A DNA stretch of 64,000 nt from Datnioides undecimradiatus (Eukaryota; Chordata; Actinopteri; Lobotiformes; Datnioididae): NCBI GenBank assembly GCA_008933995.1, contig WARS01000011.1, positions 15,378,016-15,442,015 on the forward strand, given 5' to 3'. Below the pieces are notes generated by a model, which had not been told where the DNA came from, made no database searches, and was given only the letters and a program-made list of their open reading frames with translations. Numbering within the stretch: the stretch's first letter is position 1; each line of letters opens with the position of its first letter. Position numbers and translations under genes: made by a program. Below, piece by piece: positions 31,172-48,889 of this stretch.

Positions 31172-31455
31172 TTACTCTGCCTGAATCGAGGACTTAGGAG
31201 AATTGTCCAGCTCTCTCCAGTTGCCAGAGCTGCCCGTAGGGCTCCGATTGGTCATCTTAGTCAGCAGCGTTGTTCTGCGCAGACTGCTGTCTGAGTCCTC
31301 CTTCTTGAAGTCAGTGTTTGCTTTGAGGCAGCAGGAGAAGCAGTGCACAAAATCCTGGAGGAGGTGGCCGCTGAAGATCATGTATATCCACGGGTTACAG
31401 CAGCTGTTGAGACTGGCAAGGAGCGCAGACAGAGTCACCGCTGTGTTCTCAGAAT
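31172..31455 (-). CDS. avpr1a: avpr1a coding exon 2: TM7 and cytoplasmic tail
   Basis: Second and last coding exon (284 nt; full protein 410 aa). The acceptor tctctag precedes 31455. The split codon becomes Asp317, giving [19 protein letters not shown] in TM7. The NPxxY motif is N337-P-W-I-Y341, followed by FSGHLLQDF (helix 8). Cysteines 355, 358 and 359 are the likely palmitoylation site. The tail ends with [11 protein letters not shown] and a Ser-rich stretch like other V1a receptors. Stop is TAA at 31174-31172. The single intron between TM6 and TM7 (32242-31456, 787 bp) is at the position known for vertebrate vasopressin/oxytocin receptors. Confidence 0.95.
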
Positions 31456-32242
31456 CTAGAGAACAGAGAGAGGAAAGAGGAAAAGGGTGATTAATCTGCA
31501 AAACATCTGCCGCAAGCTTGGCTGCGGAGATGCCTGCTAAGTCAATGCATCTGGTGTTGAAATGTAAAACTTCATTTGCCTTTAAACAGCAGAAAATCAG
31601 AGAAATGAGTTCAAAAAGTGAGTTTCTGTTGCAGATCAAATTTACTTCAAGTATTTTAGAATCGAGCTTCATATGTTGACCCTATCCGAGCAAAGTTCAT
31701 GAAGCGAATAACCTGAAATAACAGTTATTATGGTGTTTTTCTCCTTTGATAAAACTCTTCAAATATAAAGCTCGACTTGGAAGTGAATGACGGTGGTCCA
31801 TGTGAGAGCCCACAGCTGAAGAGGCTGAACTTCTGACAAAAGGAAAGAATTCAATTAAGATTTCAGAGAACCTAGATCTCAAAACAACTTTGAACTTCTT
31901 ATTTCTGCCTTGACATTTTAATCGTGAAGGCTGACAATGCTACACTGCCCACTTTTTGTAAATTAAGTGTCTTGTGAATGTTTTCTTTTTGTTATATTTA
32001 TCGTTTTCTTCCCCCACTATTACACTTCTTTAGTTTTAGGCACCAAATAAATCCGTGCGTACAGGCTGTGGGCACTTGGACGTGTCTTTACGCACGGTGA
32101 GCTTTTTCATTCGACAAGTGACCGAGTGCTTTCTTCTGAGCCGCGAGTTCTTCGGCTGTTTATCACATCATTCCTCAAACTGCCATAGTTTTGAATTCAG
32201 TAGTCGCTACTACATCGCTGGTTTCATTTCTTCAACACTCAC

Positions 32243-33191
32243 CAGCCCACTGGAAGTTTTCATCCCACACGGACCACATCTGTACTGTGAAAAACGGCGC
32301 CCAGCAAACAATGTACGCCAAAACTATCACGAAAGTCATTTTAACGGTCCTCAGTTTGGCTCTTGATATGGTTGTAACGCTGCTGACCGAGTGCTTCCCG
32401 ATCAGCCCGTTCTTTCCCGCAGCACCCGCCGTCGTTTTCCTTTTCTTGTATTTGATATTTTTCCATATGCTGTGGCAGATGAAGCCGTAGCACATCATGA
32501 GAATGACCACGGGCACGAGGAAGATGCCCACAGTTATCCAGGTGATGTACGCCTTGGCGCCCCATGGCTCGATAAAGTAAGCCCAACAGTCATAAACTTC
32601 CGAGCCGTTCTTGATCTCGCTCAGGGAGAAGATAAAGTACTGCGGAGTGCTGAGCACCAGGCTGCACATCCACGTGGAGACGATCATGATATAGGAGCGC
32701 TGGGTGGGTTGCTGGAGGGTTTTCAGAGGGTGGCAGATGGCAATGTAACGGTCCAGGGTCATCATCACCATCATGTAGGTGGACGCAAACATCCCCATCA
32801 CCTGGAGGTGCTTGACAATCCTGCAGAGAAAGTCTGGACCGTAGAAGCGGAAGGTGATCTCCCAGCAGAGCTGCGGCAGCACCTGGAAGAAGGCGACCAC
32901 CAGGTCAGCCAGGCTGAGGTGTTTGATGAAAAGGTGCATCCGTGACATCTTCTTCTTGGTGTTGTACATAGCCAGCAGGACGCTCACGTTGCCAATCACA
33001 GCAACCACGAAGGTGATGCTTAGGACCATGATCTCGATTTGGGCGACCTCCTCGTTTCGCGCAAACGGATCAGAACCGTTTGGGTGGACGGTGTCGTTCT
33101 CAGGTGTTCCCATCGTAAAGTCATTAGAGGGACTGAAAACCAGAGACTGGTTCCCTCCGCTCAGGAGCAGCGCATAGTCAGGAGTGTGCAT
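32243..33191 (-). CDS. avpr1a: avpr1a coding exon 1: V1a-type vasotocin/vasopressin receptor, TM1-TM6
   Basis: First coding exon (949 nt, residues 1-316 plus one base) of a class A GPCR for arginine vasotocin/vasopressin. In this family it couples through Gq to phospholipase C at the plasma membrane. The extracellular tail has N-glycosylation sites at Asn14, Asn32 and Asn38. Family sequences seen include [20 protein letters not shown] (TM2), the DRY motif at 147-149, HPLKTLQQP (loop 2), the conserved Cys123-Cys202 pair, and CWAPFF in TM6 at 296-301. The ATG is at 33191; Met27 is an alternative start. The donor gtgagt lies at 32242. Whether this is the aa or ab teleost paralogue cannot be decided here. 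Synteny with PPM1H supports V1a rather than V1b, V2 or oxytocin receptor. Confidence 0.95.
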
Positions 33192-33507
33192 GGCACTGCC
33201 CCTCTGTGCGCCCTAGCAGATACAGTGCCAGAGGGGCTGTGAAGTGCCTCTCCAATCCGTATATGGAGCTACCTGATGCTCACAGAGAAACACGTTGCTC
33301 TCTGACTTGTGGCTGCTGTCGCTGCTTTTTAAACTCGAATCAAATTTCAGACAGCGCGTGCTTGAAGCGCATACACTGCAAAAAACTACAACACCACAAG
33401 AAGCTGCATGGTTATGGGTTCCCAGAGCGCGTTTTTCCTTAAACAAAACACGCGCGTCCAGCAGATTATAAAAAGAATAAAAAGTTATTTAAAATGAATA
33501 TAATTGG

Positions 33508-43040: not shown

Positions 43041-46000
43041 GATAAGCCCTCTTAAGACCTTTCTCTGAGGGCACATTTTAAAAGAAAAACCCCATAATCT
43101 CTGAAATAAGATCTCAACACGACTGACCTGGCTTGTCTTGAACCACTAAATAGCTAAGATTCTTTGCCTTCACATTGCAACTGATCTACTACCTGTATCT
43201 GTGTACACCTTACATAATATGTCTGCGTTTAAAAGTTTAGCTCAGCGTCTATAAAACGAAATCTAAGCCGTGTCACAGGCATGATCAGACAGTCCGAGTT
43301 GTGTTTTCTTGGAGGAAATAATAATTGGAGGAGTGTTTATTGCCTCATCCTGCAGTTTTTGATGTGAAGTATCCTAAAAACTTTCAGACTGGATTAATTG
43401 TACAACCATTTCTCTGTGCTATCTCCAAATACTTTACACATCAAAAAGGCCTGATTTTCTTTTTATGAATTTTTTTTGGCCAGAATCCATGTTTTTATTC
43501 TGGCTTGTGTGTCTGGCGCGGGTAATGTCGATGGCTGGGAAGTGCTGAAAGGTGCCCATTCTTTCAGATTACACTCACTACTAACTGAGCATTACAGAGT
43601 GAGCTGCAGCATTAGGTCACTGCCAGTGTGGAATACATCTGTCGCTGCATGGACCAGCTCCCCAGTGTTGACTAAAGGGTCTGGACTCAGAACCGCCCCT
43701 CCTTCTCTGTCTTTTTTCAGCGTGGTTTTCTTTTAGGGTCTTGCAGGCAATGTCACTAGGTTCACAAGGCTGTCTGCTGATAAGAGATTTATTTTTTAAG
43801 GGGTGGGGCCGGGGTTTTGGTTTGCCCAGTCGGCTTGTATCTCGTCAAACCTCAGCTCAGTATCAGAGGTCTGATATATGTTGTTGGTTTAAGCTCCAAT
43901 TATTGACACAAGTGTCACAGTGCAAATTATATATGATAATGAAGATTTATGTAATGCAGATAGGAATGCTATAGATACATTAACGCAAAGCTCGCAAAGC
44001 ACACAACCTGTACTGAGAACATTTACACATGGATGCACACACTCTGTTAAAACACTAACCTCAGTGGCCTCTTTACACCCTGGCAATACCACGGTCATGG
44101 CTTCAGCATGGAAAACGTCCCTCGCAACATACTCGTAACATACTTACTACAAAAATGCATTGTTATTATTATTAATATTATTTATTCAGTTGTTCAATAA
44201 AGGCAATCCAAAATTAAAAAAAACAAAAAAACAATCACTGTTGGCACCAGTCTTGCCTTTTGCCTATCATGGCAACACAGGCAGCTTGTCACAGCATAGC
44301 TCGTATGGAGTGGCTCCTATTCTTGTCTCAGTTGACAGGGCGTGTTTCCTCAGAAGGCCACTTATCGTGTTTGTCTTGACATTCCAGACCCAAACAACAT
44401 GGCGAGGAGGCAGAAATACGGCCGCTTTAAAGTGGGGCGCTGTCTGCACCTGAAGGTCTACAGGTGATATATTTACTCAAATAATATACAATATAACGGT
44501 TTTAATGTTATAGAACTGTTCCCTGTGGGGTTTATGTACTAGTTCGAACCGCTTTTGGCGATCAATTCTACGTTCAGCTTAAAGGTTATGATAGGACTCC
44601 CATCTGTAAGTGGAGGCAGACACATAAATGAGTCAAAATCAACACGGCAGCAGATGAAATTAATATTTGTGGTGTTTGCTTTAACTACCCTTTTGATTGC
44701 AGCTTGAGTGAGTTGGCTTAGAAGAAACAGGTGTAGAAGAAAACAGGAGAAAAGCATGAGCTTATCATTGATTTAGCCTATAATGAAGACAGCAGGAGGA
44801 GGAGATTTACACAGGGGATCGTACTGTATGGAAACTGATAGTGCTCTGTCGCCATTATAATATGCAATAAACATTTCATAATAATTTAAAGCAAAAACAT
44901 GTCCTTTGCCAGTTTAAATACTGTTCCGAAACACCCACAGCAGAAGAAGATAAATTAGCATCAATTATATTTTTATTTTATCATATTTTGTCATATTGGG
45001 TAACTTCATTTTTCAAAATACTTTTTTTTTTTTTGAGCAGGCAGCCGGTTGTCGTTGTGCTTTGGTGAATCAGAGAGTGTCAGCTGCACTCCTATGAAGC
45101 CAGTCAGAACAGCTCCATGCAGAAATGGGATTTATAGGTGCCTTCATGAAGGCCGTGCCAGTGATTCTTCAGTGACCAAGTTGACTTCTAACTGAGCTGA
45201 TGCCTTTTAGCTGCCAACTTCCTTCTTCAAAAGGTGAAAATAATATTTCTTAAATGCAGTGAGTGGTGTACTGGCTTAAGAATTCACACTGAGCGCAGTC
45301 TCTTTGCTCTGCGGAGGAGAAAGCCGCACAACTTTGACTAGCTGCGTGTCTTGTCGTCATTGAGTGCGTCATTTTTGACACCAAAAAGAAAATCAACAAA
45401 ATGATAACAGACCAAGTAATTTGCTCGTGTCAGTCAGTTTATTAGTTCAGCAAGTCATTTTCCATCTGCTGTTTTTCTTTCATCTCTCCATATTGAGCCC
45501 CATTGCAGAAGAATGTTTTAATTAACTCCACTGAAATTCAAAACATGCCATAGTGTAACAGTAGCTAGCATGAGGCAGTTTTGAGAGCTAATTTAGAAAA
45601 CTACACAATTTCCAGCGCCCAGGGCTCATTGCACTTGAGAACAGAGCCATTTGCCTTGCTGTGATTTGAACACGGTAATAGCTGTTGTGGAGTGGGGAAT
45701 AATTGGATGTTGGAACATTGTCAAGAACACCTGCACGTGTAGTCGGACACATATGCAACGCTGTAATGTTGGGAACAAATAAAGCTTTAATAGATGTGGC
45801 GGAAGCGGAGGTGATTGAGCCAAAAGCATGAAAGTCACAGTGAAAGATCAAAAACATTGTACTTGTTATGACCGCTGCTAATGTGAACAATGACTCACAG
45901 CACTGCACTTCTCACATGCATGCGTGCAACATGATTATGTGGTAGCAAGGCACTTTTTTGTACCTAAGACATGTACGCTTGATCCATCGTAACTCAGTTT

Positions 46001-46786
46001 TAATTGAACTGTGGCAGACATTTCAACCTTTCACTGAGAATTTAATGTGTACAGTGTGACCCAGGCATCACCCAACAGACATGCAGTCCAGGTCTGGTTG
46101 ATATTCCCAGCCTTGTCTTTTTACCATTTGTTAGGATTTGTTGTTACAGACCCCCTCAGGCAACAGTGTTATGTGTCTGTTTCATATCCTGAATCCCGTC
46201 ACTGAGCGTCGTAAAGGACAGCAAATATTGATCCTTCTTGTGCGGTACACGGCAGCGCTCACATCTCAAACAGGTCTTTGTTTCTGATAAGGTGGCATCG
46301 ATGGGAAAGGTCAACAACATTTTGTCAAAAGAGCAACAGATAAGAGAATCTTACACCTGAGTCTGCCTTAAACCCTAGACCTGAAACAAATGAAAACATT
46401 ATGCAACTAGTAGGATTTATGATGTTCATGCCACAAAGTTAATGCGGACTGAGTGAAAACTGAAAGCTTAATCACTCTTGCTTGCTGAAAGTTAACCTGA
46501 AGGCAACTGTTTCAGAAACAGTTCAATAATGAAGTGTCACGTGGTATAGTGGCTGAGATGAATACAATCTCTATTGATACAACCTCAATGTTAACATAAA
46601 ATAAAGTTTAGAGATGACAAACAAAACAAGGAACCTTTCATGCACAATATACACACCAGATCCATTTTGTCATCAACAGATTTATGTAGGGATAATTCAT
46701 AAAAATATCCCTAAGAATGGTTTACCTTGATTCACTTCTGCCTTAATTGTAATTTGTATGTCTACTCAAAGTCTGTGCTGTTACTG

Positions 46787-48037
46787 CTATTGCCATTGGC
46801 CTGTACTCAGCTGCTGGGAGACATACTGACAGAAACACACTCCGCCCTCCAGGTGACCAGCAGAGCTGGGCTGGGGGAAGGGAAAGTGTCTTTTAGCAAG
46901 GCAGCAGGTGTAACCTGATGAGAAGAAGAGCAGAGCTCTTTGAAACATATCCTCAGCAACGACCTGCTCAGAAAATGTTTCTGCAAACTCCTGTTTGCAA
47001 CCATCCAGAGAAACATACACTAGGTAGATTTTGGAATTGGACTGACTGCCCATCAGCACCTTCTCCTCAGAGAGGATTACGTTAGCTTGACCTATAGCTT
47101 TCTGCATCTCCCTCACTATATATGTCCTTTCATCCTTTTTCCAGAGGCCAAGCTGAATGAATAGCCCCAATGAAACACAGATGAGACCAGAAATGAAGAT
47201 TGCCCAAAGATTTACACTCATGCCTTTGAATGAAGGTGTTTCTAACAAAGGGATGGTAACTGCCAAAATTCCAAAAAATACCATAGCAGCAAAAAGCATA
47301 ACTGCTCTAACCAAGGGTGTGTACCTGTTATTTTGAGAGACACTGTTGATCAGCCTCACAGCCTGCCTGTACTTCTCATGGTCTTCAATGATCAGGCGCA
47401 GTTGGTCTGGTACCTCCATATCACTGAACTGACCAGAATCAAATTTGTAGAGTGTCTCATCATTGGCAGCAGTCAAAGGCTGCAGGGCTTTCCCGTTGTA
47501 GATGGAGGGGGGCTGAAAGGGCACCACAGTGGACCCTTGAAGCTGCTGATTGGGGGTGCAGAGCACACTGAGCAGCTTATTCTTAAAATCAGGGTCGCTG
47601 GCCTCCAAGTAGGTGAGGTGGCAAAGGTGGAGAGGAACAGAGACTCCTGGCTCCAGCAGCACTGGGACGATGGGCTTCCTCTCCAGGCAGTCTCTGAACA
47701 TGGACATGTTGGCCTCCAGGAGACACCAGCGACTCCTCACAAACTCTGGGCTGAGAACCAGCAGGACCTTCTGGCTCTCCTGGATGCAGTCGGACATGTT
47801 CTCCAACACAGTGCGACCGGGAGTGAAGTCACGGTCGTGGTAGCAGACCTGCAAACCACAGGCCTCCAGATGATTGATGAGGGAGTGCGTCCACTTGTAG
47901 TCAGTGCTGCTGTAACTAATGAAGACATGGTGACTCTCACCGTCCCTCAGTGTGGGGGGATCACAAATAGAGGGAGACAATGGGGCAGCAGGCTGTGATT
48001 CAACATCTGCAGTCTCAGGGGTATTTATTAGATTCAT
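46787..48037 (-). CDS. TIR domain joined to a TMEM268-like (DUF4481) two-membrane-span protein
   Basis: Single-exon, 416-aa coding region with no signal peptide. Residues about 36-160 are a TLR-like TIR domain: box 1 FISYSS at 39-44, BB loop RDFTPG at 69-74, LVLSPEFVRSRWCLLE at 93-108 and TYLEA at 142-146. The box 3 FW pair is not conserved (FK at 151-152). Residues about 196-385 resemble TMEM268/DUF4481: a YKFD segment, a helix with VPDQLR, two hydrophobic spans at about 242-264 and 274-297 with a short loop, then a charged segment, KIYLVYVSLDGC, and an AEDMFQRALLFFSSGY block near the C-terminus. The middle insert of mammalian TMEM268 is missing. Both termini should face the cytosol. An acceptor tccttag ends at 48041, three bases upstream of the ATG. 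A role as membrane-anchored immune signalling adaptor is inference. The frame is fully open, so the gene is probably functional. Confidence 0.85.
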   Translation of the reverse strand: MNLINTPETADVESQPAAPLSPSICDPPTLRDGESHHVFISYSSTDYKWTHSLINHLEACGLQVCYHDRDFTPGRTVLENMSDCIQESQKVLLVLSPEFVRSRWCLLEANMSMFRDCLERKPIVPVLLEPGVSVPLHLCHLTYLEASDPDFKNKLLSVLCTPNQQLQGSTVVPFQPPSIYNGKALQPLTAANDETLYKFDSGQFSDMEVPDQLRLIIEDHEKYRQAVRLINSVSQNNRYTPLVRAVMLFAAMVFFGILAVTIPLLETPSFKGMSVNLWAIFISGLICVSLGLFIQLGLWKKDERTYIVREMQKAIGQANVILSEEKVLMGSQSNSKIYLVYVSLDGCKQEFAETFSEQVVAEDMFQRALLFFSSGYTCCLAKRHFPFPQPSSAGHLEGGVCFCQYVSQQLSTGQWQ

Positions 48038-48040
48038 TAT

Positions 48041-48889
48041 CTAAGGACAAAACAGAGGTAAGAACATCACAAACGTATATTATTAATGCTCTACAAGGAT
48101 ATCATTTACCATTTTGGTACATTTTTGTATATATTTTTTGACAAGTTAACAAAAATGCTTTAGATTAAAATGTATTTAATTTATTAAAATGCATCAAACA
48201 TATTTCATGGATTCAAAATCACAAAGATCAGATCAGATCAGACAGATACTGTCTGCTGTACTGTCGCTATCATTTTAAAATGCTGATAAAAGTGCATTAA
48301 ACTGGTTGCCAATCTATCTACACACAACTGACTAATGCAATCTTGTCATGTGGGTTCAGTTTTACTGAATTTGTCCTACTCTATTGTCACAACAATGTAT
48401 TTCGCTTAATGTGCCACTCTGTCCCTGTCTCCAGCCACTTCTTCTACTGAACACTCCATACTTGCCATTCTTCATCCATCCACCAGATGCCCTCAGTGTT
48501 TCCCATTGGTGCCAGTCACCTGACCCTGACCCACCTGCTTCATTGTTACTCAATCCCCAGTTACCCACCACAGAGTGATCTGCCTCAGCCTGCTTCTGGA
48601 CCTGAACATGAAACCAAATCTGTAACTGTATCTGCCCCTATCTTCCTGCCTGTCTGCCTGCCTGTTGTACGTTCTCCTGCCACATTCCTTGACCTATGGA
48701 TTATAAACTACCTCTGTTTTCAATTTGTCACTCTGGCTTGTAAGCCTTTTCATAATTTCATCATTCAATCACTGAACTGATCAAAACCGAATGGCAGATT
48801 TCAACATAACATTTACATTGAGCCCTTTTTACTACGCTGATGCCCTGTCAAATCAAATCAGCTATAAAACACATAATTCTTTCTCATAC
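48041..48889 (-). other. proposed 5' UTR intron of the TIR/TMEM268-like gene
   Basis: 849 bp between donor gtatgag and acceptor tttgtccttag. The centre (48380-48720) is strongly CT-rich on the plus strand with CCTGCCTGTCTGCCTGCCTG and may be an unrecognised retroelement tail. A short GATCA repeat lies at 48226-48243. Confidence 0.45.

Follow-up and report, generated by a model that had tools for sequence, protein, structure and literature searches.

The question raised by this locus is whether one fish gene joins a TIR domain of the Toll-like receptor type to a membrane module descended from TMEM268, and what such a protein might do. Known vertebrate TIR proteins are, to our knowledge, receptors, a few adaptors, SARM1 and scaffolds. 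The frame in question lies in the window, i.e., the whole stretch of 64,000 nucleotides of Datnioides undecimradiatus DNA analysed here:

46787..48037, minus strand: TIR-TMEM268-like open frame; 416 amino acids from ATG to stop, intron-free.

That this single frame carries a TLR1-type TIR followed by a TMEM268-derived two-span module is, judging from its sequence, close to certain. As a whole, the explanation that we consider best, and rather probable, is a chimeric gene for a hairpin-anchored cytosolic TIR that would tune MyD88-type signalling. If true, the joining of TIR to TMEM268 would bring a TIR to a membrane by a route that is new.

An earlier note on this DNA had read a TLR-type TIR at residues 36-160 of the frame, and the Pfam searches bear this out, both families scoring above their curated cut-offs: PF13676 (TIR_2) matches residues 38-148 with 78.5 bits (E 7.8e-22; cut-off 28) and PF01582 (TIR) matches with 53.9 bits (E 2.5e-14; cut-off 21.3).

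47558..47932, minus strand: TIR domain, about residues 36-160, closest to TLR1 (Pfam, PDB matches, tree and model).
47816..47833, minus strand: motif RDFTPG, residues 69-74, the BB loop; intact, with the conserved proline kept.

The FW of box 3, together with about a dozen residues before it, is absent from the fusion. WCLLE occupies residues 104-108, and its glutamate (E108) sits at the catalytic position of NADase TIRs. Weak matches of the fusion TIR to bacterial defence TIRs (retron and Thoeris models) were also obtained; these models pick up the TIRAP-like frame of this genome about equally weakly.

The nearest PDB sequences to the TIR are those of TLR15, TLR1, TLR6 and TLR2 (E 4.7e-21 to 1.7e-16), with TIRAP structures also among the matches. 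When the fusion TIR is aligned with 11 other TIR pieces from this genome, identities are 26-41%, including 38% to L027, which is labelled TLR1 via its PDB matches (E 3.9e-62), 38% to L026, and 41% to the shorter piece L036. By local alignment score L027 comes first (203), ahead of L025 (180), L026 (177) and L036/L037 (176). The first TIR tree, of 11 rows, grouped the frame not with TLR1 but with the TICAM-like L054. A nine-row tree, from which L054 and the TIRAP-like L041 were left out (their branches in the 11-row tree were very long, at 7.24 and 5.75, respectively), groups the frame with L027 with support of 89/87. Because the branch of the frame is itself still long (2.42), this grouping is only moderate, and so we place the fusion TIR as kin to the TLR1 of its own genome with moderate confidence. 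With L041 (contig C463) and L054 (contig C476) as TIRAP-like and TICAM-like TIR frames, ordinary TLR adaptors seem to be present in this genome alongside the fusion.

Two hydrophobic spans, which the earlier note had seen after the TIR in the same frame, are found by Kyte-Doolittle hydropathy (19-residue windows above 1.4) at residues 239-270 and 270-300. One extra window, at residues 123-141 (1.42), falls inside the TIR.

47240..47308, minus strand: first predicted membrane span, about residues 244-266; hydropathy, ends by eye.
47141..47215, minus strand: second predicted membrane span, about residues 275-299; hydropathy, ends by eye.

In the AlphaFold model, computed from an alignment of 12 rows from which the tmem268 exon rows, too short to be placed correctly, were excluded, a helix at residues 211-266 (confident only from about 241) covers the first span and another at 275-315 covers the second. 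The mean pLDDT is 60.7; means per ten residues are 74-92 over the TIR (31-160) and a moderate 67-79 over the spans (241-290), and values fall below 50 at residues 166-220 and 346-404. The model is in keeping with a TIR plus a hairpin and says nothing safe on the C-terminal domain. Since the loop between the spans is short and the sequence KKDER follows the second, the pair is predicted to form a hairpin whose two ends both face the cytosol; for the C-terminus of the fusion, it is KKDER that points to this side.

The membrane module was compared with the DUF4481 family (PF14800; profile length 293, Pfam cut-off 25 bits).

46820..47500, minus strand: TMEM268/DUF4481-like module, about residues 180-406; PF14800 and alignment, the start near residue 180 being set by the MAFFT alignment only.
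46961..47065, minus strand: DUF4481 piece 1, residues 325-359, with IYLVYVSLDGC inside; profile positions 147-181.
46820..46957, minus strand: DUF4481 piece 2, residues 361-406, with FSSGY and CFCQY inside; profile positions 247-292.

The whole protein matches the profile in two stretches with 16.3 bits (E 0.0066), below the cut-off, and residues 189-416 give 16.6 bits (E 0.0053). Residues 327-416 reach 20.9 bits (E 2.6e-4), the best stretch being 361-406 at profile positions 247-292, and residues 301-416 reach 21.3 bits (E 2.0e-4) in two colinear stretches, about 322-359 and 361-406. When the last segment is halved, each half still falls at its right place in the profile (12.3 bits with E 0.11, and 12.2 bits with E 0.12), corresponding to a single-family E of about 5e-6 per half (division by 24,736), the family having been named beforehand. 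The second piece ends at profile position 292 of 293, the last but one. Reversed (one) and shuffled (nine) versions of residues 301-416 gave DUF4481 in none of the ten cases, the best match of any family among them having an E of 0.095. Residues 189-326, which hold both spans, gave no DUF4481 match against Pfam.

The likeness to TMEM268/DUF4481 had been proposed in the earlier note, with a Pfam search named as its test. The distant homology holds, in the form of two colinear PF14800 pieces and the match at E 2.0e-4, but every score stays below 25 bits, so that the module is better described as a divergent relative than as a formal DUF4481 member. The boundary that had been drawn at FSSGY (376) proved too short, as the match continues through CFCQY to residue 406. 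Other weak Pfam matches were set aside as sub-threshold and biologically unfitting: Caa3_CtaG, DuoxA, and Fimbrial_CS1 (15.3 bits, E 0.022), which outscores DUF4481 in the upstream half alone and was taken as noise.

A second line of evidence is the genome's own tmem268. All seven PF14800 matches in the genome lie in one stretch of contig C480, as seven exon pieces, and the ordinary tmem268 is therefore a gene separate from the fusion. Searched one at a time, six of its exons hit PF14800 with E values from 8.6e-6 to 1.2e-15. The reference used for comparison was the joined exons (346 amino acids), in which the beginning of exon 1 and the splice acceptor used for exon 6 are uncertain. Against it, residues 166-416 of the fusion give a Smith-Waterman score of 75, where shuffles average 36.6 ± 6.0 and one of 5000 is as high; for the post-membrane parts only (fusion residues 301-416), the score is 53, attained by 14 of 5000 shuffles. 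With the TIR half as a control, 478 of 5000 shuffles are as high. BLASTP of fusion residues 166-416 against the same reference yields E 0.003 with 26% identity over 141 columns (composition correction off, single-sequence target). A single-sequence genome search with residues 197-416, up to E 10, did not find the own tmem268, a gene that came up with the PF14800 profile only; besides the frame, it returned a single weak match (E 1.31) that contains a stop.

The two proteins share, in the same order and at similar spacing, a two-span hairpin, a VY[VW] strand followed within a few residues by a cysteine, a helix running from A[EQ]D to [FY]S[SA][GA]Y, and a C-terminal C[FL]CQY. With these landmarks, all chosen by eye, the end of span 2 (F293) lies 47 residues from VY[VW] (V340) in the fusion versus 49 in tmem268; A[EQ]D (A361) lies 11 residues from [FY]S[SA][GA]Y (F372) in both, and the latter lies 29 residues from C[FL]CQY (C401) versus 34 in tmem268. 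The exception is the interval from VY[VW] to A[EQ]D, which measures 21 residues in the fusion versus 130 in tmem268. About 109 tmem268 residues are thus absent, most of them coded by exon 6. This exon (L019, 4904-5218) codes most of the acidic, serine-rich stretch that the fusion has lost. TMEM268, for its part, is without a TIR, whereas the fusion has no introns, lacks these residues and scores below the Pfam cut-off.

The six tmem268 exons searched map to PF14800 profile positions 36-71, 73-121, 122-158, 159-180, 165-246 and 250-293. The exon border at 158/159 falls inside piece 1 of the fusion (147-181), and the border near 246/250 coincides with the start of piece 2 (247-292); those at 71/73 and 121/122 lie in stretches aligned by MAFFT only. 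In the genome as a whole, 7 of the 18 PF01582 matches are within open frames of 795-1055 amino acids. Such long TIR frames and the intron-free fusion frame suit an origin in which a TIR exon was united with a retrocopy of TMEM268, and the TMEM268 part was perhaps acquired in this way. Intron loss, instead of retrocopying, could also lie behind the intron-free frame.

Is the frame a real gene? In the assembly that holds the window (581,297,614 bases in 497 contigs), nine protein matches were found among the best candidates scored, of which one is full-length (the frame itself) and eight are TIR-only. Codon usage was scored with a training set of 14 frames or exons of the same genome. Of the frames in the window that stay open for 50 codons or longer, the fusion ranks first, with 35.9 bits, ahead of the receptor exon that belonged to the training set (34.2 bits). 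The TIR part accounts for 26.8 bits, and residues 196-416 score only a little above zero (8.7 bits, 0.04 per codon). In this latter region the two remaining sense frames score -15.3 and -21.0 bits, one antisense frame scores 0.03 per codon (versus 0.04), and the last 31 residues of the fusion score -0.8 bits. A 250-codon stop-to-stop frame on the plus strand (47246-47998; 4.3 bits) runs antisense to most of the gene and is probably a shadow of the coding strand.

Signals for transcript processing were sought on either side:

48041..48066, minus strand: strong splice-acceptor-like tract ending in AG, three bases ahead of the ATG; prediction only.
46041..46046, minus strand: possible polyadenylation signal ATTAAA; another at 45999-46004.

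An equally good pyrimidine tract precedes 1.5% of the 4075 AGs on the minus strand of the window. The predicted acceptor makes an upstream 5′ exon likely and suggests, as a predicted acceptor only, that the entire coding sequence of the fusion resides in a single exon behind it. No AATAAA occurs within 1000 nt downstream of the frame. The 3.5 kb upstream contain one NF-κB, no ISRE, three GAS, one AP-1 and no PU.1 motif, these being counts with no background control. None of eight minus-strand frames searched upstream in the window has a Pfam match that would indicate an ectodomain (one was searched at E up to 1 and seven at E up to 0.1), though small exons could escape such a search. Whole-frame searches of viral and prokaryotic collections returned 5 and 10 stretches, respectively, that fit the pattern, none of them a confirmed relative.

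With TLR1/TLR2-type receptors the fusion shares TIR kinship (38% identity to the own TLR1) and the BB loop, but its TIR is N-terminal, it has two spans instead of one, and no leucine-rich ectodomain preceding a single span is seen in the frame or the eight upstream frames. TIRAP/MAL and TRAM/TICAM2 likewise hold a TIR at the membrane with neither ectodomain nor death domain. Their attachment is through lipid binding or myristoylation, whereas the fusion would use a hairpin, and its TIR is closer to those of the receptors. SIGIRR/DIGIRR offer the likeness of a membrane TIR acting as a brake; they differ in possessing an immunoglobulin ectodomain and a single span. Precedents for linking a TIR to some other part in a layout unlike that of TLRs are the transmembrane TIR proteins of Hydra (PMC6043800) and the metazoan TIR-STING fusion (PDB 6wt6, 6wt7). 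In the titles and abstract openings of the papers listed, no TIR-TMEM268 protein is described, and 'TMEM268' and 'TIR domain' co-occur in no paper of the open-access collection; protein databases may already list the architecture for fish. We know of no TMEM268 part in the Hydra proteins or in TIR-STING.

On TMEM268 itself, PMC6748091 places the human protein in the endoplasmic reticulum and plasma membrane, and has it bind ITGB4 via residues 104-342. In mouse phagocytes, according to PMC11169502, TMEM268 protects CD11b from endosomal-lysosomal loss, binding via residues 1-152, and septic knockout mice have higher serum cytokines; the authors' hypothesis, as given there, is that these rise via enhanced TLR signalling through CD11b. 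A natural fusion of the two would point directly to joint action of the TMEM268 and TLR routes. CD11b, for its part, is said to promote the degradation of MyD88 and TRIF (a finding attributed to Han, 2010).

We infer the expression, topology, location, partners and sign of effect of the fusion from its sequence and these parallels. The N-terminal part would be a TLR1-type TIR freed of a ligand-binding ectodomain, and the C-terminal part would descend from TMEM268 (DUF4481) in shortened, intron-free form. With the two spans folded as a hairpin, the TIR and the C-terminal TMEM268 part would both lie in the cytosol, and the hairpin would tether the TIR to TMEM268 membranes, i.e., the endoplasmic reticulum and the plasma membrane, beside integrins and the endosomal route. 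Via its intact BB loop the TIR could then enter the assemblies that TLR1/TLR2-type receptors form with MyD88 or TIRAP through TIR-TIR contact, thereby tuning MyD88 signalling at those membranes. Action through TIR-TIR contacts seems to us the likelier mode. A brake or sink is favoured over an activator, because there is no death domain or effector part and the box-3 FW with its dozen or so preceding residues is lost; that the net effect is inhibitory is nonetheless a tentative proposition, falling somewhat short of an even chance. More doubtful is the broader idea that a TLR1-type TIR and a retrocopied TMEM268 together constitute an undescribed vertebrate regulator coupling integrin or phagocytic membranes to MyD88, a membrane-tethered TLR1/2-type switch.

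Several other readings compete with a hairpin-anchored TIR that tunes or dampens signalling. The protein might be a positive sorting adaptor, its TIR platform at the membrane helping MyD88 to reach the receptors as TIRAP or TRAM do. These two have no effector parts and act through membrane placement; TIRAP structures are among the PDB matches, and the retained BB-loop proline allows recruitment but does not show it. The TIR is, however, nearest to the receptor TLR1 and not to the adaptors, box 3 is lost, and no sequence feature favours activation, and we regard this reading as rather unlikely. Somewhat less likely still is a TMEM268-like integrin or trafficking factor first and foremost, which the TIR brings to phagosomes or activated receptors, coupling integrin stability to TLR engagement. 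The binding and stabilisation of ITGB4 and CD11b by TMEM268 (PMC6748091, PMC11169502) speak for it; on the other side, the binding regions are without residue-level definition, and the module of the fusion is shortened and divergent. At about 26% identity the integrin-contact surfaces of TMEM268 may have been lost.

It is improbable that the frame is a functionless retrogene chimera, either untranscribed or in decay: the missing AATAAA within 1000 nt and the weak codon score of the second half would suit it, but 416 codons are open with the best codon score of the window, the C-terminus is kept to its end, and a predicted acceptor stands before the ATG. The glutamate of WCLLE (104-108) and the weak matches to bacterial defence TIRs could point to a membrane-anchored NAD-cleaving effector, a reading that becomes highly improbable given the kinship to TLR1 and the equally weak retron and Thoeris matches of the TIRAP-like frame. 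WCxxE is common to TLR TIRs, which are not regarded as NADases. Least credible, by a hair, is a chance resemblance of an unrelated two-span half to TMEM268. A sub-threshold Pfam score, a silent span region and a single-sequence search that misses the own tmem268 would be expected of it, but not two colinear pieces of a family named beforehand that end at the last profile position but one, with empty controls and a spacing similar to that of the own tmem268.

Among the neighbouring loci, a short plus-strand frame (L058: 7995-8228) about 34 kb upstream of the fusion has no significant Pfam match; it reads like what we take to be the start of an ANKRD26-type ankyrin protein. In the other direction, some 13.6 kb downstream from the TIR frame and on the same strand, lies a receptor gene:

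31175-31681 and 32235-33212, minus strand: vasopressin/vasotocin V1-type receptor, two exons (7tm_1 E 4.3e-45; V1R_C E 4.8e-16).
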